In this document: in pieces, positions 4,758 through 64,000 of the stretch
Numbering within the stretch: position 1 is the first letter of the stretch
Layout: every line of letters starts with the position of its first letter
Assembly (NCBI RefSeq): GCF_900114615.1
Contig: NZ_FOTS01000005.1
Location: 62,001-126,000 of the forward strand
Source: Pelosinus propionicus DSM 13327
GTDB lineage: Bacteria; Bacillota; Negativicutes; DSM-13327
Reading direction: 5' to 3'
DNA: 64,000 nt
Made by a program: the position numbers and the translations under genes
The notes under the pieces: model-generated
The model's database searches: none
What the model was told of the DNA's origin: nothing
What the model saw: only the letters and a program-made list of their open reading frames with translations

Positions 4758-5603
4758 ATGGCTGAAAAACTAACGCAAGAAAAAGTATCCGAATTAGAAA
4801 AATATGCACAGTCTATTCGCTATAGTATTGTAGAAATGGTTACGGAGGCTCAATCTGGTCATCCAGGTGGTTCCTTATCAGCGGCCGATATTCTCACAAC
4901 ACTATACTTTGCTGAGATGAATGTAAATCCTAGCGATCCTCAGGCAGTAGGAAGAGATCGTTTTGTTTTGTCGAAAGGTCATGCTGCTCCTGTGTTGTAT
5001 GCTACATTAGCTGAGAGAGGCTTCTTTCCAAAGGAAGAATTGCTGACGCTGCGTAAAATTGACAGCCGTTTGCAGGGACATCCCAGCATGAAAAATCTGC
5101 CAGGTATTGATATGTCTACCGGATCATTAGGACAGGGCCTGAGCGCTGCTGCAGGATTAGCATTAGCTGCTCGTCTTGATAATAGCGAAAGCCGCGTATA
5201 CACTGTGCTGGGGGATGGTGAGCTGGAGGAAGGTATGGTATGGGAAGCTGCTATGTTTGCTGCCCATTATAAATTGGATAATTTGACTGCTTTTGTAGAT
5301 TTTAATGGATTGCAAATTGATGGTCCTATTTCCGAAGTATTATCACCATTGCCAATCCCAGAGAAGTGGACCGCTTTTAATTGGCATGTGATTCTAGTTG
5401 ATGGACATGATATACAGGCGATCTATGATGCAGTTCAAACTGCTAAAACAATAAAAGGCAAACCTACAATGATCGTTGCCCAAACGATAAAAGGTAAAGG
5501 CGTCTGCCAAATGGAAAATATTGCTGATTGGCATGGTAAGGCTCCAAGTCGTGAACAATGTGATTTGTTTCTGTCCCAACTAAATGAATTAGAAGCAGAA
5601 TAA
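4758..5603 (+). CDS. Transketolase, N-terminal subunit
   Basis: The protein has 281 residues and covers the thiamine-diphosphate-binding half of transketolase. SGHPGGSLSAADI, LSKGHAAPVLYA and the GDGELEEGMVWEA metal/ThDP motif are all present. Full-length transketolase is about 660 residues; here the C-terminal half is the separate next gene, a split arrangement common in Firmicutes and archaea. AAGGAGG stands 10 bases before the ATG. Together the two subunits move two-carbon units between pentose and other sugar phosphates. They could use the D-xylulose-5-phosphate made by the pentulose PTS operon at 54.7-61.2 kb. Confidence 0.95.
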   Translation: MAEKLTQEKVSELEKYAQSIRYSIVEMVTEAQSGHPGGSLSAADILTTLYFAEMNVNPSDPQAVGRDRFVLSKGHAAPVLYATLAERGFFPKEELLTLRKIDSRLQGHPSMKNLPGIDMSTGSLGQGLSAAAGLALAARLDNSESRVYTVLGDGELEEGMVWEAAMFAAHYKLDNLTAFVDFNGLQIDGPISEVLSPLPIPEKWTAFNWHVILVDGHDIQAIYDAVQTAKTIKGKPTMIVAQTIKGKGVCQMENIADWHGKAPSREQCDLFLSQLNELEAE

Positions 5604-5657
5604 AAAATAGGCTGGTTTTAGATGTGTTTATAGGCCAGCCAGTGAGAGGTGTAGAGA

Positions 5658-6593
5658 ATGGGTTTAGCAACTCGTGAAGCATATGGAGAAATACTAAAAG
5701 AACTTGGGGGCAAATATGAAAATATTGTTGTATTAGATGCGGATTTATCCAAATCTACTAAGACAGCTGTATTTGCAAAAGCATTTCCTCAGCGGTTTTT
5801 TAATGTCGGAATTGCAGAACAAAATCTAATGGGTGTAGGAGCAGGATTGGCTGCTGGTGGAAAGATACCATTTGTATCAACTTTTGCCATGTTTGCTGCT
5901 GGCCGGGCTTTTGAACAAATCCGGAATTCCATTTGTTATCCAAAATTGAATGTTAAGATTGCCGCTACGCATGCTGGTTTAACAGTTGGTGAAGATGGGG
6001 CTTCTCATCAAGCCATTGAAGATGTTTCTCTCATGCGCAGCATTCCTAATATGACAGTCATTGTGCCGGCAGATGCTGAAGAAACTCGTAAAGCAGTTGC
6101 TTTTGCAGCTGAATATGACGGCCCTGTTTATATTCGTCTGGGACGTATGGCAGTTCCTGATTTATTTGCTGCTGATTATACTTTCGAGCATGGTAAGGCT
6201 GTACAGCTGGAAGATGGTAAAGATGTTACTATTATTGCAACTGGCATTATGGTTGGTGCTGCAAAAGAAGCTGCTAAGCAATTACAAGATGCAGGTATCA
6301 GCGCCAGAGTGCTGAATATCCATACCATTAAACCGATCGATAAGGATGCGATCGTAAAGGCTGCTGCTGATACAGGTGCCATTGTCACTTGTGAGGAACA
6401 CAGCATCATTGGCGGATTAGGCAGTGCTGTTGCGGAAGTACTAGTAGAAAACAGTCCTGTTCCCATGGAACGTATAGGTGTATGCGATACCTTTGGTGAG
6501 TCTGGCATACCTAGTGCTCTTTTGAAAAAATATCATTTAACTGCGGAAGATATTGCTGCAGCTGCTAAAAAAGTAATTAGCCGCAAGAAATAA
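5658..6593 (+). CDS. Transketolase, C-terminal subunit
   Basis: The protein has 311 residues and carries the central pyrimidine-binding domain (VLDADLSKSTKT, FNVGIAEQNLMGVGAGLA with the catalytic glutamate in GIAEQN) and the C-terminal transketolase domain (CEEHSIIGGLGSAVAE). It is the partner of the preceding N-terminal subunit, 54 bases away, and both end before a terminator at 6607. The same split architecture occurs in DXP-synthase-like proteins, but the paired N-terminal gene and the sequence pattern favour transketolase. Confidence 0.94.
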   Translation: MGLATREAYGEILKELGGKYENIVVLDADLSKSTKTAVFAKAFPQRFFNVGIAEQNLMGVGAGLAAGGKIPFVSTFAMFAAGRAFEQIRNSICYPKLNVKIAATHAGLTVGEDGASHQAIEDVSLMRSIPNMTVIVPADAEETRKAVAFAAEYDGPVYIRLGRMAVPDLFAADYTFEHGKAVQLEDGKDVTIIATGIMVGAAKEAAKQLQDAGISARVLNIHTIKPIDKDAIVKAAADTGAIVTCEEHSIIGGLGSAVAEVLVENSPVPMERIGVCDTFGESGIPSALLKKYHLTAEDIAAAAKKVISRKK

Positions 6594-52975: not shown

Positions 52976-53341
52976 TTGCCTATTGAAGGTTTTATAATGG
53001 GGACGTTAGGGTTTGCTGTTATGGGAGCTATCCTGTATATTTGGGGGTATCGAAAGTCCCGCAGCACTCCGCGCCGTTTGCATGCGCAGATGGGGCAGGC
53101 AATCGAAGCCAGAATTCAGACCCTCCTTGCTAGCCAAAGTCATGGTGCAACGCTGAAAGAAATTGCTAAATCAATTAGTGATCTTAGTGTGGGGGGGCAA
53201 TTGCAAGGCTATAAGCTGCAAGTGGAAGATGCCCGAGCCGCTACTGATGCGGTACTTCGACATATGATTAGTCGTGGACTGGTTGTTAAGCATGACCAGG
53301 GAAAAACACCCAAGTATCTTTTGACAACAATGGAACGATAA
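52976..53341 (+). CDS. Small membrane-anchored protein with winged-helix-like domain
   Basis: The protein has 121 residues. One N-terminal membrane segment (about 4-24, FIMGTLGFAVMGAILYIWGY) is followed by a soluble helical part whose ATLKEIAKSISDLSVGGQLQ and ATDAVLRHMISRGLVVKHDQ look like a winged-helix fold with a short hairpin. I do not recognise a named family. AGGAGGGGG stands seven bases before the TTG. It is placed between the PqqD-like gene and the aminopeptidase, all in one direction with short gaps, so it likely belongs to that module. Confidence 0.75.
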   Translation: MPIEGFIMGTLGFAVMGAILYIWGYRKSRSTPRRLHAQMGQAIEARIQTLLASQSHGATLKEIAKSISDLSVGGQLQGYKLQVEDARAATDAVLRHMISRGLVVKHDQGKTPKYLLTTMER

Positions 53342-53364
53342 CTTGACATGAGGATGATGAGATT

Positions 53365-54327
53365 ATGACAAAGCATTTGGAGAAAAGCGCAGAAATTGCA
53401 ATCCGCCAGTGTATGGCGGTTAAAAAGGGAGAAACCGTTCTTGTGGTCACTGACGAGCCAACTCGCAATGTAGGGAGAGTATTATGGGAAAAGGCTGTGG
53501 AAGCTGGAGCGGAGGCTCTATATGTTGAAATGCTGCCACGTAAAAATGACGGTGTAGAGCCACCGCCCGCTATTGCTGCGGCAATGTTACATGCTGATGT
53601 CATTTTAGGTGCTACCTCCTGTTCCTTCTCCCATACGAAGGCTCGGAAAGACGCTAGTCAAAAGGGAGCGAGAATAGCTACTCTGCCTGGTATTACAGAA
53701 GATATTATGCAGCGTACCTTAAGTGCTGATTATGAGCATATTGCAGAGCTAAGTCAACGATTTGCCAAACTGCTTAGCGACGGCGAAGCAGTACATATTT
53801 CTACATTGGCTGGTACTGACTTGACTTTATCTATCTCGGGCAGGGAAGGTCACGCGGATACAGGCATTAATCATGCAGCAGGGGATTTTAGCAATCTGCC
53901 AGCAGGTGAAGCTTATGTCGCTCCTGTAGAGGAAACGGCAGAAGGCATTATCATTATTGATGGCGCCATGGCAGGCATTGGTGTTCTAGAATCACCCATT
54001 AAACTGACTGTAGAAAAAGGTTATGTTACGAAAGTAGAAGGCGGAAAAGAGACTGAAAAGTTGGAAGCTATGTTGAACGAGTATGGCAAATTGGCTTGTA
54101 ATATTGCGGAATTGGGCATTGGTACCAACGATCAGGCGATTCTGTCTGGGCGAGTTTTAGAAGATGAAAAGGTGATGGGAACGGTTCATATTGCTTTGGG
54201 GAATAATTTCGGATTTGGCGGTACATGTCAGGTACCGATGCATTTGGATGGCATCCTGCTGAGTCCTACCCTGACGATTGATGGTCAGGTAGTCATTAAG
54301 GATGGCAAGCATTTGATTACGGTATAA
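53365..54327 (+). CDS. M29-like aminopeptidase (leucyl aminopeptidase / AmpS-related)
   Basis: The protein has 320 residues. VKKGETVLVVTDEPTRNVGR and the C-terminal AELGIGTNDQAILSGRVLED, EKVMGTVHIALGNNFGFGG and PMHLDGIL contain the Glu/His/Asp metal ligands of the aminopeptidase T (M29) fold; the same fold also occurs in NicX-type dioxygenases. The protein is shorter than typical M29 (about 400) and matches the short group often annotated as leucyl aminopeptidase. It probably trims peptides brought in by the OPT carrier. TGAGGATGATGAG precedes the ATG. A strong terminator follows. Confidence 0.85.
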   Translation: MTKHLEKSAEIAIRQCMAVKKGETVLVVTDEPTRNVGRVLWEKAVEAGAEALYVEMLPRKNDGVEPPPAIAAAMLHADVILGATSCSFSHTKARKDASQKGARIATLPGITEDIMQRTLSADYEHIAELSQRFAKLLSDGEAVHISTLAGTDLTLSISGREGHADTGINHAAGDFSNLPAGEAYVAPVEETAEGIIIIDGAMAGIGVLESPIKLTVEKGYVTKVEGGKETEKLEAMLNEYGKLACNIAELGIGTNDQAILSGRVLEDEKVMGTVHIALGNNFGFGGTCQVPMHLDGILLSPTLTIDGQVVIKDGKHLITV

Positions 54328-54384
54328 TTGCCGTTCGTTATGGTGAAAGTCAAAAAAAGAAAATGATCTGGCGGTTGAACGGAA

Positions 54385-54426
54385 CCCCTTGTATTGGACA
54401 TTGCAGAAGAAGTCCAATACAAGGGG
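54385..54426 (+). terminator. Intrinsic terminator after the aminopeptidase
   Basis: CCCCTTGTATTGGAC (54385-54399) and GTCCAATACAAGGGG (54412-54426) are perfect complements, followed by TATTTTG. The gap from here to 54682 holds the sigma-54 promoter and possible activator sites, and no gene. Confidence 0.85.
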
Positions 54427-54587
54427 TATTTTGTGTTTAGCATCAATTGCAATAATTTGTTGAGACGCTTCTCTTAGACTTTTTTTTGTTATAAAGTGTA
54501 TTTAATATTTCATGTAAAGAGTGAATTTTTTGTTAATTTTAATGATCTATTTGTACTTTTAAAAGCCATGCTGCTTTTTTTGTATGT

Positions 54588-54613
54588 TAGATCGTTTGAT
54601 AGTAAAGGATCTA
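54588..54613. promoter_or_regulatory. Possible upstream activator site for the sigma-54 promoter
   Basis: TAGATC (54588-54593) and GATCTA (54608-54613) form an inverted repeat with 14 bases between, about 30-55 bases upstream of the -24 element. A third copy, GATCTA, lies at 54544-54549. The position fits an enhancer site for the LevR-type activator encoded just downstream. Confidence 0.45.
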
Positions 54614-54641
54614 CGAGGGGCTAAACAAAAAAGTCATTTCT

Positions 54642-54657
54642 TGGCATATAAATTGCA
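54642..54657 (+). promoter_or_regulatory. Sigma-54 (-24/-12) promoter of the PTS operon
   Basis: TGGCATATAAATTGCA at 54642-54657 has GG and GC exactly ten bases apart, matching the TGGCAC-N5-TTGC consensus except for the C in the -24 block. Transcription should start near 54668, giving a leader of about 15 bases that still holds the GAGGGGAG ribosome binding site. The activator gene directly downstream contains the sigma-54 contact motif GAFTGA, so the operon is probably self-activating. Confidence 0.85.
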
Positions 54658-54682
54658 TTACTTATGGGTGAGGGGAGAAGCA

Positions 54683-57640
54683 ATGAAGGAGAAATTAAAA
54701 AAGCTAATCCAAAAAGAAGATGGTAAAAATCCGCTGACGGACACGGAAATTGCGCAAAAATTAAAGATCAGAAGAGAAGAAGCTACAATGATTAGAAATA
54801 GTCTGGAGATTCCAGATTCTAGAGAAAGGAGAAAAGTTGATTTATTAAAAAAGATAGAACTTTTGATGAGAAAGGCCCCGAATAGAACCATGGTTGATGT
54901 GACAAGATCACTGAATGCATCAGGGTATGAGGTTTCAAGATGTACTGTAGTGCGATATGCAGAAGAAATTCGACAAAATAGCAGGAATGATCAGAAGCAG
55001 GGCCAGGTAGTAAGTACAGCTTTCGAAAAATCCCAAGGAGCCTCAGAGCCAGATGTATTTTCAAAATTAGTTGGACATAGCCGAAGTCTAAAAGGGATTA
55101 TTCAATTAGCAAAGGCCGCTGTTTTGTATCCTCCCCATGGGTTGCATACGATTATTACAGGGCCTACGGGTGTGGGAAAAAGTGAATTAGCTGAATGTAT
55201 GTACGAATTTGCTGTTGAGTCTGGTGTATTTGAGAAAAACTCTCCCTTTGTTGTTTTCAATGCGGCGGATTATGCTGAAAATCAGCAATTGCTGTTATCA
55301 CAGCTCTTTGGACATATAAAAGGTGCTTTTACCGGTGCAGATATGGATAAAATGGGTTTGGTAGAAAAAGCAGATGGCGGAATTCTCTTTATTGATGAAA
55401 TACATCGGTTGCCTCATGAGGGTCAGGAAATATTGTTTCAGCTGATCGACAAAGGAAAAGTAAGAAGACTAGGGGAAACGAAATTATCCACATCGATTAA
55501 AGTCATGCTAATCAGTGCTACATCAGAGCCTCTTGAATCCTACTTATTGACCACATTTAAAAGAAGAATTCCTATGGTCATCGAAATACCGGATTTAACT
55601 TCAAGACCGCTGGTGGAACGACACCATATTATTAACAATTTTTTTGTTAATGAAGCACATCGAATAGGGATTGCCATTCTGGTTAAGGCAGATGTGTATA
55701 AAGCCCTAATGCTATATAAATGTCATGGCAATTTAGGACAACTGAGAAGCGATATACAAGTAGCATGTGCAAGAGGATTGCTAAACAAGCTGGCAAAGCA
55801 GCAGGACAATGTGGTTGTTAATATTTCAGAAGTTTCTGAACATGTAATGAAAGGTTTAATTGATATCCGTAATCACCGTGATAAGGTAGAAAAATATGTG
55901 CTTGGGGATGTCAAGATCTCTCCTGATGCCAATGTGCATGAAATAAGAACCAATGATAGCATTTATCAATTTCCAGAGGAAATATACCGGTATACGGAAG
56001 AGAGATATCTGTCTTTGCTGTCTGAAGGAATTGAAGTGGAAGCAATAAACCGGATTGTTGGAGGAGAAGTTGAAATACAAATTCAACAGTATATCAAGAG
56101 TATGAAGACCTATACTGGAGATATGGATTTGAGAGAATTAGTTTCGGTTGTGGGTAAGCAGATTCTCTTACTAACAGAAGACATTATAAACATTGCTGAA
56201 AAAAGGTTTGGGAAGCTTGATGGCAGCTTAAAATTCAGCTTGGCGATTCATTTGAAAGCGACGATTAGCAGGCTGAAAGAAGGCAAGAAAATACAGAATA
56301 ATAATCTGAAAGAAATTATCAATAATTATCCTCAGGAATTTACTGCTGCCCGTGAAATCTCTGATTATCTTGAACAGACCTATTCCATTTGTCTGCCGGA
56401 GGAAGAGCTTGGATTTATCGCAATCTATTTAAATTCAGGATATAGAAAGAATTTTTATCATGTACCGAAAGTAGGCGTTTTCATCATAGCTCATGGTCGG
56501 GTTGCCAGTGCTGTTGCGGAGGTGGTCAATAAACTTCTGGGGGTTATGAATCATGTGAAGGCTCTCGACATGCACCTGGATAAGAGCCCCCAGGAAACCA
56601 TAAGGGATGTAATTAAAATGGCAGAAGAAATTGATGAAGGCCGGGGTATTATTATTCTTGTCGATATGGGATCTTTGGCTTATTTGGGAGAATTTATCAC
56701 CAAAGAAACAGGGATCGAAACAAGAACCCTAACCAGAGTGGATACGGTATTAGCCATTGAGGTAACCCGCAGGGCGACTTTACCGGACCTTAGTATTGAC
56801 GATATTATGGCATCGATTCGATATGAACTATCTGGTGGCCTTGAGTATAAAGAAGCATCAGTGGATACAGCAAATGGCAAGAAACCGACGATTTTAATAA
56901 TCTGCGTCACAGGAAGTGGAACGGCAAAGATCATAAGAAACAAAATTGTGGATGCCATACCGGGTATTGAGTTGAAGTTTCACATAGAGACAAAAGGTAT
57001 TATTGAGTTTCCCAAAATGGATATTGAAATCAGCAGAATTAAAAAAAGAAAAAACATCATAGCCATTGTCAGTACCATTCATCTGGTTGTTACTGATATT
57101 CACTTTGTTAATGCCCAAGAGGTGTTAAAAAACGAGGGAATGAAGAAGTTTAAAGACTTTATTATGATGAAGTCTAATAGTAGTAAGGATCAACCTCTGC
57201 CTGCTTCAACGCTTGATAATCTGATTCAAGAAAAAAATATATATGTGAACTTGCCCTATGATCACAAAAAAGATGCTCTTACGTATTTATGCAAGGAGTT
57301 GATTAAGGGTAAAGCAGTAAAAGATGAGTATTTAGATGGCGTATTCAGCCGGGAAGAACTATTCACTACAGAATTAGAGGGGGGCGTGGCCATTCCTCAT
57401 TCGGATGAAACCAGTGTCCTTGAATCATCCATTGCCATAGCCACACTGAAGAATCCAATCCTGTGGGAGAATAAATACGTCAATATTATTGTCATGTTAG
57501 CGGTGGATAAGAACTGCTTTACCGCGTTAAGTACCATGTTAGGTTATATCATAACAGAGGATTTTAAGAAAATTGCGCAGCTAACTTCTGCAAAAGACAT
57601 AAAGGAGGCTATCATGGATGCCTGTAAGGAACACATTTGA
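54683..57640 (+). CDS. Sigma-54-dependent PTS activator, LevR/MtlR hybrid architecture
   Basis: The protein has 985 residues: an N-terminal helix-turn-helix region; a sigma-54 AAA+ domain with GPTGVGKSE (about 160), GAFTGA (about 214) and ILFIDEIHRL (about 233); one PTS-regulation domain (about 430-590, with LAIHLKATISRL and EELGFIAIYL); an EIIA-Man-like domain (VGVFIIAHGR, His about 604); an EIIB-Gat-like domain (IICVTGSGTAKI, Cys about 741); and a C-terminal EIIA-2 domain (GGVAIPHSDE, His about 906). LevR ends with a second PTS-regulation domain, not EIIA. ATG at 54683 follows GAGGGGAG. The protein is switched by phosphorylation and should drive this operon. Confidence 0.9.
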   Translation: MKEKLKKLIQKEDGKNPLTDTEIAQKLKIRREEATMIRNSLEIPDSRERRKVDLLKKIELLMRKAPNRTMVDVTRSLNASGYEVSRCTVVRYAEEIRQNSRNDQKQGQVVSTAFEKSQGASEPDVFSKLVGHSRSLKGIIQLAKAAVLYPPHGLHTIITGPTGVGKSELAECMYEFAVESGVFEKNSPFVVFNAADYAENQQLLLSQLFGHIKGAFTGADMDKMGLVEKADGGILFIDEIHRLPHEGQEILFQLIDKGKVRRLGETKLSTSIKVMLISATSEPLESYLLTTFKRRIPMVIEIPDLTSRPLVERHHIINNFFVNEAHRIGIAILVKADVYKALMLYKCHGNLGQLRSDIQVACARGLLNKLAKQQDNVVVNISEVSEHVMKGLIDIRNHRDKVEKYVLGDVKISPDANVHEIRTNDSIYQFPEEIYRYTEERYLSLLSEGIEVEAINRIVGGEVEIQIQQYIKSMKTYTGDMDLRELVSVVGKQILLLTEDIINIAEKRFGKLDGSLKFSLAIHLKATISRLKEGKKIQNNNLKEIINNYPQEFTAAREISDYLEQTYSICLPEEELGFIAIYLNSGYRKNFYHVPKVGVFIIAHGRVASAVAEVVNKLLGVMNHVKALDMHLDKSPQETIRDVIKMAEEIDEGRGIIILVDMGSLAYLGEFITKETGIETRTLTRVDTVLAIEVTRRATLPDLSIDDIMASIRYELSGGLEYKEASVDTANGKKPTILIICVTGSGTAKIIRNKIVDAIPGIELKFHIETKGIIEFPKMDIEISRIKKRKNIIAIVSTIHLVVTDIHFVNAQEVLKNEGMKKFKDFIMMKSNSSKDQPLPASTLDNLIQEKNIYVNLPYDHKKDALTYLCKELIKGKAVKDEYLDGVFSREELFTTELEGGVAIPHSDETSVLESSIAIATLKNPILWENKYVNIIVMLAVDKNCFTALSTMLGYIITEDFKKIAQLTSAKDIKEAIMDACKEHI

Positions 57641-58085
57641 TAAACAGTTAATCTTTAACGACCTGAAGATAAGAGACAAAAATGAAATATTACAATATAT
57701 GGCCACTAAAATGTACGAAAAGGGTTATGTGAAGGGAACCTATGCACAAGCCGTAATTGAACGGGAAAAAGTATATCCCACTGGATTGCAAACAGAAGCC
57801 TTCGGCGTAGCCATACCCCATTCTGATAGTATTCATGTGAATCAGGCTGTTATAGCCGTATGTATAGTAGAAGAACCAATTGTATTTCATGTAATGGGAG
57901 GAGCAGAAGAGGAGGAAGTATTGGTAAAATTCATCTTTATGCTTGCCATTGATGATCCGAAAAAACATATTGAAATGCTGAGCAAGCTATCTATCATATT
58001 TCAGGATGAACAAAAAATGCAAGAGATCGTAAAACTGAAACAGGATGCTATTTATGAAAAATTAAATTGTTATATTAATCATTAG
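57618..58085 (+). CDS. PTS EIIA component (fructose/galactitol type)
   Basis: The protein has 155 residues. The phospho-accepting histidine lies in AFGVAIPHSDSIHV, and the KGYVKGTYAQAVIEREKVYP stretch is the usual N-terminal pattern. It takes phosphate from HPr and passes it to EIIB. The ATG lies inside the end of the regulator gene (overlap 23 bases) behind AAAGGAGG. Its sequence resembles the EIIA-2 domain at the regulator's C-terminus, including GVAIPHSD, so the regulator may have gained its last domain by duplication of this gene. Confidence 0.94.
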   Translation: MPVRNTFDKQLIFNDLKIRDKNEILQYMATKMYEKGYVKGTYAQAVIEREKVYPTGLQTEAFGVAIPHSDSIHVNQAVIAVCIVEEPIVFHVMGGAEEEEVLVKFIFMLAIDDPKKHIEMLSKLSIIFQDEQKMQEIVKLKQDAIYEKLNCYINH

Positions 58086-58097
58086 GAGGCAAAAAAG

Positions 58098-58391
58098 ATG
58101 ATGAAAAAGAAAGCGCTGGTTGCCTGCGGCTGCGGTGTAGCTTCATCGACGATTGTTGCGAAGAAATTGGAGGATTATTGTGGCGAACGGGATATAAAAC
58201 TGGAGTGGAGGATCTGTAAGGCAGCGGAGATTCCATCCTTGGCTGATATGATGAAGCCCGATGTAATTATCTCCATCACAGCAGTAGCTGATTTAGGCAA
58301 TCAAATTCCGGTGTTTGACGGGAAGCCTTTTTTAACGGGAATTGGTGTAGCAAAAAGATTAGAGGAAATCTATCAGGCAATTTTAAAATAA
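58098..58391 (+). CDS. PTS EIIB component (galactitol type)
   Basis: The protein has 97 residues. KALVACGCGVASSTIVAKKL at the N-terminus contains the phosphocysteine and the Gat-type EIIB P-loop. It receives phosphate from EIIA and phosphorylates the sugar in EIIC. AGGAGG precedes tandem ATG codons (58098, 58101). It is 12 bases after EIIA and 18 before EIIC, so stoichiometric expression is likely. Confidence 0.94.
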   Translation: MMKKKALVACGCGVASSTIVAKKLEDYCGERDIKLEWRICKAAEIPSLADMMKPDVIISITAVADLGNQIPVFDGKPFLTGIGVAKRLEEIYQAILK

Positions 58392-58409
58392 GTGAAGGAG
58401 ATCGATGAA

Positions 58410-59672
58410 ATGGACTTTATTGCGGGTATTTTTGAGTTCTTTCTTGGTTTAGGTGCATCTGTTTTTTTGCCGATATTAATTAGTATTTTTGCAATCATCC
58501 TGGGGCAGAAGCCAGGGCGGGCCATTCGCAGCGGGATTACGATTGGGATTGGTTTTATTGCCATTGGAGCTATACTAGGGATATTCGTGAGTAATTTAGG
58601 GCCGGCTGCAGAAGCGATGGTTAAGCGTTTTGGAGTCAATCTCACTGTATTGGATGCGGGCTGGCCAGCTACTGCCAGCATTGCCTTTGCTTCAAAGATA
58701 GGAGCGTTTATTATTCCGTTGGGCATCACGATTAATGCCATCATGCTTGTAACCAAGATGACAGATGTTGTGGATGTGGATATCTTCAATTACTGGCATT
58801 TTACCTTTGTAGGAGCTTTAGTTTATGGAAGTACGGATAATTTATTATTGGGCTATGCAGCAGCAGGTCTTGCTCTCATCGTCGGTTTGAAAACGGGTGA
58901 TTTTACTGCGAAGTATTTTCAAAAATATTATGGTTATGAAGGGGTGTCGATTCCCCATATTTTATCCAATGGTTTTGCGATTATTGGCTGGCCCCTTAAT
59001 AAAATAATTGATATGATCCCTGGAATTCGAGATATAAAAGCCGATCCAGGAACCATTTCGAAAAAGTTCGGAATTATGGGAGAGCCAACTGTAATGGGGA
59101 TCATTTTAGGTGCCGGTATTGGCATCCTGGCGGGTTACGATATTAGTAAGATCTTGAATTTAGCGATTATTATGGCCGCAGTGATGATGCTCTTGCCAAG
59201 GATGGTAGGGATCTTAATGGAAGGACTGCTGCCAGTATCAGATGCAGCAAAGGAATTTTTCTCAAAAAAATATTCAGATAGAGAATTTACCATTGGTCTG
59301 GATTCTGCCATCGCCGTAGGAGACCCTGCCGTTCTAGCCTCTTCTTTGTTATTGGTGCCAATCGCCTTGGGATTAGCGATTGTGCTGCCTGGCAATAAGG
59401 TACTGCCTTTTGGAGATCTCGCGACGATACCCTTTATGATTTGTATTGTCAATATATTTACGAAAGGAAATGTATTCCGCAATGTACTCATTGGCTCCTT
59501 TTTAACAGTATTTGCCTTATATAGTGCAACCATTAACGCAGATACACATACCGCCATGGCGATTGCAGCGGGTTTTACAATGCCGGAGGGAGCGAGTACC
59601 CTGTCTAGTTTTGTAGGGTCTTCCAATCCAATTACCTTGGCCATCTGGAAATTATTCAGCTTATTTGGCTAA
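58410..59672 (+). CDS. PTS EIIC component (galactitol family)
   Basis: The protein has 420 residues and about 10-12 membrane segments. FFLGLGASVFLPILISIFAI, LGQKPGRAIRSGITIGIGFI and ASTLSSFVGSSNPITLAIWK match the EIIC-Gat family, which includes carriers for galactitol, arabitol/xylitol and related compounds. It is not an ascorbate UlaA protein. The ATG at 58410 has GAAGGAG at the right distance; GTG 58392 is in frame but inside the end of the previous gene. Substrate inferred from the enzymes that follow: a pentulose or pentitol. Confidence 0.92.
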   Translation: MDFIAGIFEFFLGLGASVFLPILISIFAIILGQKPGRAIRSGITIGIGFIAIGAILGIFVSNLGPAAEAMVKRFGVNLTVLDAGWPATASIAFASKIGAFIIPLGITINAIMLVTKMTDVVDVDIFNYWHFTFVGALVYGSTDNLLLGYAAAGLALIVGLKTGDFTAKYFQKYYGYEGVSIPHILSNGFAIIGWPLNKIIDMIPGIRDIKADPGTISKKFGIMGEPTVMGIILGAGIGILAGYDISKILNLAIIMAAVMMLLPRMVGILMEGLLPVSDAAKEFFSKKYSDREFTIGLDSAIAVGDPAVLASSLLLVPIALGLAIVLPGNKVLPFGDLATIPFMICIVNIFTKGNVFRNVLIGSFLTVFALYSATINADTHTAMAIAAGFTMPEGASTLSSFVGSSNPITLAIWKLFSLFG

Positions 59673-59698
59673 AACAGAAACGGTGAAAGGATAACAAT

Positions 59699-60553
59699 AT
59701 GAACATAGTAAAGAATACGCCTGTGGGAATTTATGAAAAAGCCTTACCGGAGACAATGAGTTGGATGGAAAAACTCAATTTGGCTGCTGAATGCGGCTAT
59801 GATTTTTTAGAAATATCCATTGATGAAAGTGAGAGTAAATTAGAACGGTTACATTGGAATCGTTATCAAAAAAGTGAACTTTTGCAAGGGATTTTGGCAA
59901 CGGGCATTCCTATTTTGAGTATGTGTCTCAGCGGGCACCGAAAATATCCTATGGGAAGTGAATCGAATAGCACGCGGCAAAGAAGTCTGGATATTATGGA
60001 GAAAGCCATCCAATTTTCCGTGGATTTAGGAATACGGGTTATCCAATTGGCAGGGTATGATGTTTATTATGAAGCAGGAAATGAAAAGACGAAAGAGCTT
60101 TACTGCGAAAGCATGCGCCAATCTGTAGAATTGGCTAGTAAAGCCAATGTCATCCTTGCTATTGAAAATATGGACCATCCATTTATGAATTCCATCTCCA
60201 AGGTCATGGAATATATAGACTTGTATCAATCTCCCATGTTGCAGGCATATCCCGATATTGGAAATCTGACGGCCTGGGATTTAAGCATAAAAGAAGAACT
60301 CTGCAAGGGCGGTGGTCATATTGTAGGAATTCATATAAAAGATACTGTGAATCAAGTCTTTCGCAGAATTGATTTTGGTGAAGGCATAGTAGATTTTTCG
60401 AAGGCTTTTCAAGTTTTGTATGAATTGCATTATCAGGGGCCTTTTGTCATAGAAATGTGGTCTGAGAATAACGTGGACAGCAAAGAAAAAATGATTTACG
60501 CAAGACAATGGGTACAAGAAAAAATGAAACATGCAGGTTATATTTTTACATAA
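59699..60553 (+). CDS. ulaE: L-ribulose-5-phosphate 3-epimerase (UlaE/SgaU family)
   Basis: The protein has 284 residues. VGIYEKALPETMSWMEKLNL and AECGYDFLEISIDESESKL are the standard N-terminus. Metal ligands are in AIENMDHPFMNS, AYPDIGNLTAW, GIHIKDT and FVIEMWSEN. It interconverts L-xylulose-5-phosphate and L-ribulose-5-phosphate. In the ascorbate pathway it follows UlaD decarboxylase, which is absent here. It is encoded 27 bases after EIIC and 16 before the 4-epimerase gene. AAAGGATAAC precedes the ATG. Confidence 0.92.
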   Translation: MNIVKNTPVGIYEKALPETMSWMEKLNLAAECGYDFLEISIDESESKLERLHWNRYQKSELLQGILATGIPILSMCLSGHRKYPMGSESNSTRQRSLDIMEKAIQFSVDLGIRVIQLAGYDVYYEAGNEKTKELYCESMRQSVELASKANVILAIENMDHPFMNSISKVMEYIDLYQSPMLQAYPDIGNLTAWDLSIKEELCKGGGHIVGIHIKDTVNQVFRRIDFGEGIVDFSKAFQVLYELHYQGPFVIEMWSENNVDSKEKMIYARQWVQEKMKHAGYIFT

Positions 60554-60568
60554 TGGAGGTTTATAGTT

Positions 60569-61216
60569 ATGCTGTTAGAAGAAATAAGAAAAGAGGTTTT
60601 GGAAGCTGCTGTGGATTTGTTAAAATACGGCTTGGTTACTTTGACAGGAGGGAATGTGAGTGGGCGGGATGAGGCAACGGGATATATTGCCATTACTCCC
60701 AGCGGGATGCCTTATGAAGCACTTTTTCCTGAGGATATTGTCATTATCGATATCGAGGGCAATGTCATAGAAGGAAAATGGAAAGCTTCTGTCGATACAC
60801 CGGATCATTTATATATTTACAAACAGCGGCAAGATCTGTTTAGCATTATTCATACGCATTCTACTTATGCCTGCTCTTTTGCAATGCTCCATAGGGAGAT
60901 TCCATGTGCTACAACTACCTTGGCCAATGAAGTGGGAGGCTCTGTGCCTGTTGCCAGATATGCACCAGTGAATTCAGGATTGATTGGACCCAGTGTTATA
61001 GAAGTGATTGGTAATAAAAGCGGCTGCTTATTAGCCAATCATGGTGTAATGACTGTAGGGACTTCTGTAAAACATGCCTTAACGGCAGCTGTGATGCTAG
61101 AAGATAATGCTAAGTCGTATCTCTTTGCCAAAAGCATTGGTGAGCCAGTACTCTTAGAAGAGGAAGAGATACAAAAAGCAGTGGAAGTCTTTCAATATGT
61201 TTATGGACAAAAGTAA
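60569..61216 (+). CDS. L-ribulose-5-phosphate 4-epimerase (AraD/UlaF-like class II aldolase family)
   Basis: The protein has 215 residues, slightly shorter than AraD (about 230). TGGNVSGRD binds the substrate phosphate, HTHSTYACSF carries two zinc-ligand histidines and LANHGVMTVG the third. It converts L-ribulose-5-phosphate to D-xylulose-5-phosphate. L-fuculose-1-phosphate aldolase belongs to the same family, but the adjacent 3-epimerase supports the epimerase call. AATGGAGG precedes the ATG. It is the last gene of the PTS operon; the terminator-like hairpin at 61259 follows. Confidence 0.85.
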   Translation: MLLEEIRKEVLEAAVDLLKYGLVTLTGGNVSGRDEATGYIAITPSGMPYEALFPEDIVIIDIEGNVIEGKWKASVDTPDHLYIYKQRQDLFSIIHTHSTYACSFAMLHREIPCATTTLANEVGGSVPVARYAPVNSGLIGPSVIEVIGNKSGCLLANHGVMTVGTSVKHALTAAVMLEDNAKSYLFAKSIGEPVLLEEEEIQKAVEVFQYVYGQK

Positions 61217-61258
61217 GTAAGGTACAAGATCGTAGAATGTGTCCTTAAGTGAACTAAT

Positions 61259-61305
61259 AGAAGAACCAGCTTTAAGCTCATGTTGAGCTTGAAGCTGGTT
61301 CTTCT
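61259..61305. terminator. Hairpin between convergent 4-epimerase and LysR genes
   Basis: AGAAGAACCAGCTT (61259-61272) and AAGCTGGTTCTTCT (61292-61305) are perfect complements, and inner AAGCTCA/TGAGCTT lengthens the stem. T tracts are weak on both sides, but the position between convergent genes supports a shared terminator. Confidence 0.8.
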
Positions 61306-61306
61306 T

Positions 61307-62191
61307 TCATTTCCATTGCTGAATGTACTGCCAAAACATAAGTAATGACATGGAGGCTTTTTCTTGTTTAGTCCGGGCGAGGACGATATGTTTGTAGAAG
61401 GGATCTACTAGGCGGACAGTGGGGAGGCTGGCACTGTTGTTGTAGTACTGCAGACCACTTAGGGAGATGAAGGCAATGCCTAGACCAGCTTGAACGAGGT
61501 CAATTCTTCTACCGGGGCCATTGCATTCACTTACGATTTTTGGCGTGAAGCCAGCTTTGCGGCATTCTGTGAAGAAAATGTCATAAGATACATTATTCTT
61601 TGTTGGGAAAATAAAATTCTCGTTAGCGGTTTCGCTTAATTTGATCGTTTCTTTTTGGGAGAATGGATGATTCGTCGGTGTGATGAGAACGAACTCTTCC
61701 TTTTCTAATGGATGAACTTCAAAATTATAGCTATCAATATCATAAGGTGCAGCAAAGAGCGCGAGATCAAGATTGCCCTCGTAGAGCAGTTTGCAAAGCT
61801 CTTTACTTAGCTCATTGGTGACGGCAAATTTGATGCTGGGATGTTCGCTGTTAAATGCAGTAAAGATATTGGCGATATTGAGATTGCCAAGCCCCGTAAT
61901 GACACCGAGATGGATCGTACGTTTTTCAATTGAAAGATGCTTTTGCAGATGTTGGTGCATTTGGTCAACTTCGTGGGTGATTTTCTTTGCATATAGCATG
62001 AAGTCTTGTCCTGCGGGAGTTAATTCAATAGGGTGCTTGATGCGGTTGATGAGTCTCATGCCTAAATCATTTTCTAACTTAGTAATTTGTTGGGATAAAG
62101 CAGACTGCGAGACGAAAAGCTGATCTGCGGCACGAGTGAAATGCTTACACTCGGCGACTGCCAGAAAATACTGTATTTGTTTTAACAGCAA
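61307..62191 (-). CDS. LysR family transcriptional regulator
   Basis: The protein has 294 residues from TTG 62191, or 297 from GTG 62200. TTG is favoured because GGGGTGA lies just before it. The N-terminal helix-turn-helix reads QIQYFLAVAECKHFTRAADQ and LFVSQSALSQQITKLENDLG, classical LysR. The effector domain follows. It is divergent from the DcuC-type carrier gene, the usual layout when a LysR protein controls its neighbour. The long intergenic region contains two dyads described below. The effector is unknown; a dicarboxylate or peptide-derived amino acid is plausible. Confidence 0.93.
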   Translation of the reverse strand: MLLKQIQYFLAVAECKHFTRAADQLFVSQSALSQQITKLENDLGMRLINRIKHPIELTPAGQDFMLYAKKITHEVDQMHQHLQKHLSIEKRTIHLGVITGLGNLNIANIFTAFNSEHPSIKFAVTNELSKELCKLLYEGNLDLALFAAPYDIDSYNFEVHPLEKEEFVLITPTNHPFSQKETIKLSETANENFIFPTKNNVSYDIFFTECRKAGFTPKIVSECNGPGRRIDLVQAGLGIAFISLSGLQYYNNSASLPTVRLVDPFYKHIVLARTKQEKASMSLLMFWQYIQQWK

Positions 62192-62257
62192 GTTAATCAC
62201 CCCAAGGTTTAGCGTTAGGTTCGGCTCTATTTCAACTCATTATGATTATGTCATTAT

Positions 62258-62302
62258 ATCATTATTATGGGGTGTGATATGATTTTTTTTTCTAATAATG
62301 AT
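62258..62302. promoter_or_regulatory. Dyad in the LysR/DcuC divergent region
   Basis: ATCATTATTA (62258-62267) and TAATAATGAT (62293-62302) are perfect complements 25 bases apart. The position between divergent genes suits a LysR binding region. Confidence 0.5.
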
Positions 62303-62413
62303 AGTAGAAATACGAATTGTACTTTCATTGAAACACGCGATATTATCAATATAAGTTAACTGTAAGGAATAAATGGTTTGATTGAAAGATGCGCGCAAAA
62401 AAAAACAAATATC

Positions 62414-62441
62414 TGAACATTCTAAAATAATTAAATGTTCA
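62414..62441. promoter_or_regulatory. Eight-base inverted repeat before the DcuC-type gene
   Basis: TGAACATT (62414-62421) and AATGTTCA (62434-62441) are complements with a 12-base AT-rich loop, about 22 bases before the start codon. It could be an operator or a leader hairpin. Confidence 0.45.
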
Positions 62442-62463
62442 TGCCAAAGAAAGGAGTCGTTTT

Positions 62464-63810
62464 ATGGTTGGAGTTATCATTGCCACTTTAGTTATTGTAC
62501 TCATTGCTTATTTGGTTTATAAGAAATATAAGCCCCAGACTGTAATTTTATTTGGAGGCATGATCCTTATCGCCAGCGCAATTATAATTGGTAATCCGAT
62601 TATTGCAGCAAAACAGAGTATGGGAAATCCATGGCTTGATATTTTTAAAGTCATTGAAGATTTAGCAAGTAATCGTGTTGCTGGTTTAGGATTAATGATC
62701 ATGTCGGTTACCGGTTTTGTTAAATATATGGATTATATAGGTGCTAGCAGGGTATTTGTTCATATTGGTGTAAAGCCGCTGCAGCTGATTCGTTCGCCCT
62801 ATATAGTATTAGCTTTTGCTTATCTTATCGGGCAGATGATGAAAATGGCAATTACCAGCGCAGCGGGTCTTGGTGTATTACTTATGGCGACAATGTTTCC
62901 AATTTTACTTAGCTTGGGTGTATCACGGGGGGCGGCAGCAGCGGTAATTGTCAGTTCTTCCTGTATTGACTTGGGACCGGCAGCGGCAACATCCAATTTA
63001 ATGGCAAAAACAGCTGGAATTGACGTCGTTGATTATTTTATTACTTATCAATTGGTGGTTGCCATTCCGGTTATCCTTACGATAGCAGTATTGCATTCGA
63101 TCGTACAGCAGTATTTTGACAAAAAAGAAGGCTTAGTGAAGGATGAGAAACTTGAAGTAAAAGAAGGTCAATTACCGCCAAAAATTTACGCTATTCTACC
63201 AATTTTGCCGTTAGTAATGATCTTTATGTTCAGTCCAGTCGTTGGGTCGAAACTTAAAATGAGTTTAGTCAGCGCGATGTTTTTTGGCTTATTTATTTCA
63301 ATGGTCTTTGAGTTTCTCCGTACACGTAATTTGAAAGAAGTTTTTAAAGGCATACAAAAATTCTTTGATGGAATGGGCAGTGCATTTGCCACAGTGGTTA
63401 CCCTGGTTATAGCCGGGGAGTTGTTCGCCAAAGGCTTAGATGCGGTTGGTGCGGTAGAAACGGTAATCAATGCCTCTAAAATTGCTGGGTTTGGCGAAGA
63501 AGCAATGACGATTCTGCTGCAAACGGTTATTGCCGGTGCGACGATCTTGACAGGTTCTGGTGATGCTGCTGTGTTCTCCTTCGCTGGGCTAGCACCTGTT
63601 ATAGCTGCACATCATGGAGTAAATCCAGTGGAAATGCTCATTCCAATGCAATTTTCAGCAACACTTGCCAGATCGGTCTCCCCCATATCAGCGGTTATGA
63701 TAGCAGTTGCGGGTATTGCGATGGTTTCACCGTTTGATATTGCGAAAAGAACGATGATTCCGTTAGGAGCAGGGTTAGTTGTGACAACAATAGCATCTTT
63801 GATGTTGTAG
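62464..63810 (+). CDS. DcuC family anaerobic C4-dicarboxylate carrier
   Basis: The protein has 448 residues and about 11-12 membrane segments. VSSSCIDLGPAAATSNLMAK and ATILTGSGDAAVFSFAGLAP match the DcuC family, which exchanges or exports succinate, fumarate and related C4-dicarboxylates under anaerobic conditions. AGAAAGGAGTC precedes the ATG. It is followed 27 bases later by an M20 peptidase gene, an unusual partner that hints at uptake of an N-acyl or peptide-linked amino acid rather than plain succinate. Confidence 0.88.
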   Translation: MVGVIIATLVIVLIAYLVYKKYKPQTVILFGGMILIASAIIIGNPIIAAKQSMGNPWLDIFKVIEDLASNRVAGLGLMIMSVTGFVKYMDYIGASRVFVHIGVKPLQLIRSPYIVLAFAYLIGQMMKMAITSAAGLGVLLMATMFPILLSLGVSRGAAAAVIVSSSCIDLGPAAATSNLMAKTAGIDVVDYFITYQLVVAIPVILTIAVLHSIVQQYFDKKEGLVKDEKLEVKEGQLPPKIYAILPILPLVMIFMFSPVVGSKLKMSLVSAMFFGLFISMVFEFLRTRNLKEVFKGIQKFFDGMGSAFATVVTLVIAGELFAKGLDAVGAVETVINASKIAGFGEEAMTILLQTVIAGATILTGSGDAAVFSFAGLAPVIAAHHGVNPVEMLIPMQFSATLARSVSPISAVMIAVAGIAMVSPFDIAKRTMIPLGAGLVVTTIASLML

Positions 63811-63837
63811 TAGAAATAAGAAAAGGGTGATCGTGTT

Positions 63838-64000
63838 ATGGAAATAGAAGGATTGGAAGTATCCAACTATTTAAGAGAACTTGAATACTTAGTGAATATT
63901 GATAGTGTATCTTCTGATGCAGCAGGTACAGCAAAAATCGCAGAATTTATGACAGCAAAATATCGTTCTTTAGGCTGGCAAGTTAAAGAACATAATTTTA
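63838..64000 (+). CDS. M20 family metallopeptidase, N-terminal part (3' end outside window)
   Basis: Fifty-four residues are visible. YLRELEYLVNIDSVSSDAAG and TAKIAEFMTAKYRSLGWQVK are the typical opening of M20 carboxypeptidase G2/ArgE/PepT-like enzymes; the metal ligands lie beyond the window. AAAGGGTGATC precedes the ATG at 63838. It probably shares the transcript with the DcuC-type carrier and would hydrolyse an imported peptide or acyl amino acid. Confidence 0.75.
   Translation, partial: MEIEGLEVSNYLRELEYLVNIDSVSSDAAGTAKIAEFMTAKYRSLGWQVKEHNF

Follow-up and report, generated by a model that had tools for sequence, protein, structure and literature searches.

Within a 64,000-nt stretch of contig NZ_FOTS01000005.1 from the soil bacterium Pelosinus propionicus DSM 13327 (hereafter the window; coordinates are window positions), we found a six-gene unit encoding a sigma-54/LevR-type activator, the EIIA, EIIB, and EIIC components of a Gat-family phosphotransferase system (PTS), the epimerase UlaE, and a class II aldolase-family protein. 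Our tentative reading, to which we give slightly less than an even chance, is that the unit is self-contained, is switched on by its sigma-54/LevR-type activator, and serves for a free L-ketopentose, L-xylulose being the likeliest. In the proposed route, the free sugar would enter through the PTS and become phosphorylated at C5 on the way; UlaE is predicted to epimerize the resulting L-xylulose-5-phosphate at C3 to L-ribulose-5-phosphate, a step for which both its family and its residues give good support. The class II enzyme would then act on L-ribulose-5-phosphate, most simply as a divergent 4-epimerase yielding D-xylulose-5-phosphate for transketolase, although its catalytic residues differ from those of AraD and UlaF. 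Judging by domain content, the PTS domains of the activator may sense PTS phosphorylation and switch on this single operon.

The operon and its control elements, all on the forward strand, are as follows.

54482-54490 and 54526-54534 (span 54482-54534), +: two copies of TTTTTTGTT, candidate activator binding sites, found post hoc
54641-54657, +: sigma-54 promoter TTGGCATATAAATTGCA, exact consensus
54683-57640, +: LevR-type sigma-54 activator, AAA+ domain with GAFTGA, PRD, EIIA-man, C-terminal EIIA_2 (Pfam)
57618-58085, +: PTS EIIA, Gat-like (PF00359, 128.7 bits)
58098-58391, +: PTS EIIB, Gat-like (PF02302, 36.5 bits)
58410-59672, +: PTS EIIC, Gat family (PF03611, 277.9 bits)
59699-60553, +: UlaE, predicted L-xylulose-5-phosphate 3-epimerase (PRK13209 and TIGR00542, over cut-off)
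60569-61216, +: class II aldolase-family protein (PF00596, 164.2 bits), placed in a Thr43/Asn120 clade by tree and residues
61260-61304, +: intrinsic terminator at the operon end, 20-pair stem, 5-base loop, T-rich tail

The initial annotation had set the system at 57618-61216; the genes in that span stand, but the operon starts upstream of it, with the sigma-54 promoter and the activator gene, whose 3' end overlaps the EIIA gene by 23 nt. An Rfam search of 53000-64000 returned no RNA family. A split transketolase (N- and C-terminal halves) is encoded at 4758-6593, some 48 kb before the operon.

UlaE exceeded two NCBIfam cut-offs (PRK13209, 386 against 317; TIGR00542, 370.1 against 272.15) and is 50% identical to Escherichia coli UlaE. 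In an alignment with that enzyme, it keeps the equivalents of E155, D185, H211, and E251, which we take to be the metal and catalytic site, as well as the GIYEKAL and HR-x-x-P-x-GS motifs, which presumably form the phosphate site seen as novel in the structure of the E. coli enzyme. Family and residues together give good support for a genuine L-xylulose-5-phosphate 3-epimerase. We found no second strong UlaE-type match in the Pelosinus genome. A strong UlaE match turned up at seven further loci among 398 phylum genomes; every one belongs to an ascorbate (UlaA/D/G) or a LyxK cluster, alongside AraD-type enzymes, and none of the seven has a Gat PTS beside it. Within this sample, the combination of UlaE with a Gat PTS is specific to units of the window type.

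EIIA, EIIB, and EIIC are Gat-family PTS proteins, all above their Pfam cut-offs (for the EIIC-GAT domain, 277.9 bits against 24.2); both the Gat-type PTS and the UlaE-type epimerase named in the initial annotation were borne out. Like E. coli GatABC, the system has its A, B, and C components in separate genes of this family. It differs from GatABC in scoring below the galactitol-specific NCBIfam cut-offs for EIIA (PRK09665, 80.4 against 139), EIIB (PRK10310, 57.8 against 95), and EIIC (TIGR00827, 463.7 against 542.2) and in lacking the GatD dehydrogenase and GatYZ aldolase. With three scores below cut-off and no GatD in the operon, it does not class as a galactitol-specific PTS.

UlaE is also the 3-epimerase of the ascorbate route, but an ascorbate module was rejected for its mismatch in EIIC family and gene content, and we see only a very slight chance that it is correct. 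The EIIC belongs to the Gat family and has no BLAST similarity to E. coli UlaA, and neither UlaD nor UlaG occurs in the unit in any genome. A separate UlaG is present in the Pelosinus genome (544.5 bits, cut-off 306), in an operon (L227, G000:C47) with major facilitator superfamily carriers, an AraD-type enzyme, a TIM-barrel protein, and its own transketolase halves. The window operon resembles E. coli ula and sgb, in which UlaE or SgbU is followed by UlaF or SgbE, in having a true UlaE and then a class II enzyme. Unlike them, it encodes neither UlaD nor UlaG, a Gat EIIC takes the place of UlaA, and its class II protein, which has neither Asp120 nor Lys42, does not group with UlaF, SgbE, and AraD.

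The unit is conserved as a whole. The same six genes, in the same order with other flanks, occur in five other genomes: a second Pelosinus (G061), a Propionispora (G045), two members of the family of G045 (G027 and G009), and Alkalibaculum sporogenes. EIIC identity to the window protein across these five is 82-99%, with 82% in Alkalibaculum sporogenes; the EIIC of Pelosinus fermentans UBA6563 is 99% identical. No dehydrogenase, decarboxylase, or lactonase gene, and no UlaA or UlaD, lies in the operon in the window or in the five other genomes, which extends to other genomes the absences noted earlier for the window. The absence of a dehydrogenase is not a habit of the genome, because another Gat operon of Pelosinus (L072) has a gene complement of the pentitol type: two Zn-dehydrogenases, Rpe, RpiB, and a split transketolase.

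These absences bear directly on a pentitol PTS, in which a pentitol such as L-arabitol would be imported as its phosphate and a dehydrogenase encoded in trans would supply L-xylulose-5-phosphate or L-ribulose-5-phosphate to UlaE and the class II enzyme. Known Gat-type systems transport polyols, the genome encodes 13 PF08240 dehydrogenases, and at locus L194 in G009, a Gat PTS with a GatD-like dehydrogenase and a true AraD lies beside an operon of the L073 type described below. In Clostridia, AtlR, a PRD-type sigma-54 activator, governs atlEFG and, as a separate operon, atlD-tkt-rpi-araD-manB, which is annotated for pentitol catabolism (PMC6615313). In both that regulon and the window operon, an activator of the PRD sigma-54 type drives a PTS whose substrate has five carbons, a likeness of activator type, but the window operon contains no atlD dehydrogenase, tkt, or rpi. 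Because clostridial AtlR regulons place the dehydrogenase in trans (PMC6615313), we retain the pentitol PTS as an unlikely but appreciable alternative. Against it, the operon lacks a dehydrogenase in all six genomes, and no second operon with the candidate activator site was found at the spacing searched.

Control of the operon is by a promoter class that is real in this genome, because sigma-54 consensus sites numbered 139 over 5.4 Mb compared with four for a reversed control pattern. The window promoter is conserved at three further loci (L068, L069, and L090). The Pfam domains Sigma54_activat, PRD, EIIA-man, and PTS_EIIA_2 all scored above cut-off in the activator, and GAFTGA is seen in its sequence; with a GAFTGA-containing sigma-54 domain, a PRD, and EII-like domains, the protein is a LevR-type PRD sigma-54 activator. 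We searched for a palindromic activator site common to the orthologues and found none; TTTTTTGTT alone stood out. This motif lies upstream of the sigma-54 promoter in six of six orthologous operons, some of them near-identical, and in Clostridioides difficile, compared with 0 of 16 other sigma-54 upstream regions. No other sigma-54 site in the genome has TTTTTTGTT at 46-167 bp upstream, the spacing searched, which supports a one-operon regulon for the activator, as far as this candidate site predicts.

The initial annotation had suggested looking for a remote dehydrogenase under the same sigma-54 control. None emerged among the PF08240 genes; short-chain, mannitol-dehydrogenase-type, and iron-type dehydrogenases were not surveyed. 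L072 accounts for two of the 13 PF08240 genes. Another two possess their own sigma-54 site (L210 and L211) but lie behind other activators, with their own transporters or hexuronate genes, and these two were rejected as members of the regulon.

The initial annotation had called the last enzyme UlaF-type, a label that did not survive comparison: the protein scored 135 against the AraD equivalog TIGR00760 (cut-off 389.1) and 244.6 against the broader subfamily PRK06557, narrowly below 251, and it is 32-35% identical to E. coli AraD, UlaF, and SgbE. A tree of 46 sequences places it in an 11-member clade (support 96/83) that is separate from both the Glu76 aldolases (n = 9) and the AraD/UlaF/AraB-linked group. 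All 11 clade members have Thr43 and Asn120, whereas all 26 epimerase-type sequences have Lys (Lys42 of AraD, UlaF, and SgbE) and Asp at these positions. The catalytic residues of AraD are Asp120 and Tyr229 (PMC5434028). Asp76, Thr116, the C-terminal Tyr, and the metal-site residues His95, His97, and His158 are retained in the clade; in the window protein, this Tyr is Tyr212 of a YGQ motif, the equivalent of Tyr229. Glu121, beside Asn120, is not an obvious stand-in for Asp120, because it is not kept in every clade member (Ala in L180 and L148). Samuel et al. (2001) reportedly saw a roughly 3000-fold loss of kcat in D120N and weak binding in K42M, with Lys42 in the phosphate pocket. An AlphaFold model of the window protein had a mean predicted local distance difference test score of 62, falling below 50 at residues 105-138, around position 120. 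The protein may epimerize as a divergent 4-epimerase, cleave as an aldolase, or catalyze some other reaction; its sequence cannot tell these apart.

An aldolase would imply another route: phosphorylation by the PTS at C1, a 1-phosphate as the substrate of UlaE, and cleavage of the product by the class II enzyme to dihydroxyacetone phosphate and glycolaldehyde. We consider this improbable. The window protein has Thr43 instead of Lys, as do nine of nine Glu76 aldolase-type sequences (FucA included), it lacks Asp120, and phmmer ranks fuculose-phosphate aldolases over AraD (133 against 101 bits). However, the catalytic Glu73 of FucA is replaced by Asp76 and the FucA Tyr by Thr116, and the operon contains no gene for handling glycolaldehyde. 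UlaE, moreover, retains the motifs that we presume form a 5-phosphate site. Relatives with 66-68% identity to the class II protein are found beside XylB/LyxK-type kinases, as at L179 and L181, where clade members accompany an ATP-binding cassette transporter, such a kinase, and dehydrogenases. Kinases of this type yield ketose-5-phosphates, and we count these neighborhoods for a ketose-5-phosphate substrate.

Elsewhere, a Gat PTS is all that accompanies the clade member (L073, L193, L194, and L195). L073 (G000:C54), a second PTS operon in the Pelosinus genome, encodes EIIA, EIIB, EIIC, an Asn120-type class II protein 70% identical to that of the window, and a LevR-type activator; all four of these operons, in this genome and its relatives, lack UlaE and a dehydrogenase. 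The L073-type operon is possibly an L-ribulose PTS. As a separate observation, short class II proteins (about 215 aa, D120-type where aligned) occupy the AraD place beside AraB in L-arabinose-type operons (L182, L185, L186, L196, and L222), with AraA in L186 and L222.

The Asn120-type gene also adjoins Aco-like (acetoin-dehydrogenase-like) E1/E2/E3 genes in three lineages, namely Pelosinus (L073, L193, and L195), G381 (L181), and C. difficile (E2/E3 in L220 and E3 in L221); Pelosinus and C. difficile also have a lipoate ligase there. This linkage, and the invariance of Thr43 and Asn120 in the clade, would fit a new activity on some other ketose, such as a 1-deoxy or branched one, whose product can feed the Aco-like complex. 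We give that explanation a small chance. Neither the window operon nor its orthologues have the complex nearby, UlaE points to xylulose and ribulose 5-phosphates, and the neighbors in C. difficile are otherwise housekeeping genes, so the linkage may partly be inherited order.

The C. difficile operon CD0040-CD0043 has a LevR-type regulator and a mapped SigL promoter, ATGGCATATAAGTTGC (PMC7438776). It resembles the window operon in its Gat PTS, its activator-EIIA-EIIB-EIIC order, a near-identical promoter, and a class II protein 71% identical with Thr43 and Asn120, but has no UlaE, and its EIIC resembles the L073 paralogue more closely (65%, against 47% for the window protein). The pneumococcal PTS SP2129-30 was proposed for ketopentoses from gene content, its substrate not being demonstrated there (PMC3302838). 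It shares with our proposal the idea of a xylulose or ribulose PTS and differs in having an ascorbate-type EII with a transketolase. This was the only earlier ketopentose-PTS proposal in the literature searched, which contained no demonstrated L-xylulose or L-ribulose PTS.

Four Bifidobacterium genomes (L091, L092, L093, and L098) encode a Gat-type EIIC next to an FGGY kinase and UlaE, without adjacent EIIA or EIIB. A 4-epimerase is present in all three loci whose sequence extends far enough, and two of two aligned copies are D120-type. The likeness to the window is a Gat-family EIIC with UlaE and a 4-epimerase, and the differences are a kinase in place of EIIA and EIIB, the D120-type 4-epimerase, and a SorC-type regulator. 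At the two loci inspected (L107 and L110), the EIIA of these genomes sits with a UlaA-type EIIC. The kinase is closest to LyxK (32-36% identity in three full-length copies; 280-311 bits compared with about 114-130 for XylB), an enzyme reported as confined to Gammaproteobacteria (PMC3245297). An evolved E. coli GatC passes unphosphorylated glucose (PMC12089948), and the Bifidobacterium EIIC may likewise work as a plain carrier. The position of the kinase fits free L-xylulose or L-ribulose. We treat this cluster as parallel, independent evidence and not as orthology, because its EIIC is no closer to the window EIIC (40%) than to the window paralogues; for the same reason, it was rejected as an orthologue.

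Several points weigh against a PTS for free L-xylulose: this lack of a specific EIIC relationship, the replacement of both Lys42 and Asp120 in the last enzyme, the mainly polyol substrates of characterized Gat systems, and the possibility that PTS sugars are phosphorylated at C1 rather than C5. The initial proposal that the PTS itself delivers L-xylulose-5-phosphate or L-ribulose-5-phosphate agrees with the conserved self-contained unit, the failure to find a second operon with TTTTTTGTT, the retained UlaE residues, and the Bifidobacterium parallel, but the substrate is only inferred. In its onward route to D-xylulose-5-phosphate, the UlaE step is well supported, and the final step depends on a protein without the catalytic Asp known from 4-epimerases.

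A broader interpretation, possible but doubtful, is that Thr43/Asn120 proteins form a third class, neither AraD nor FucA type, for PTS-delivered ketopentose phosphates in Pelosinus, Propionispora, Alkalibaculum, and C. difficile, and that the window operon is the first L-xylulose PTS. Asn120-type proteins, which are likely annotated as L-ribulose-5-phosphate 4-epimerases, may not have that activity, which matters also for C. difficile CD0040-CD0043. If confirmed, the window system would add an entry route by phosphorylation for rare L-ketopentoses and could serve work on rare sugars as a tool.

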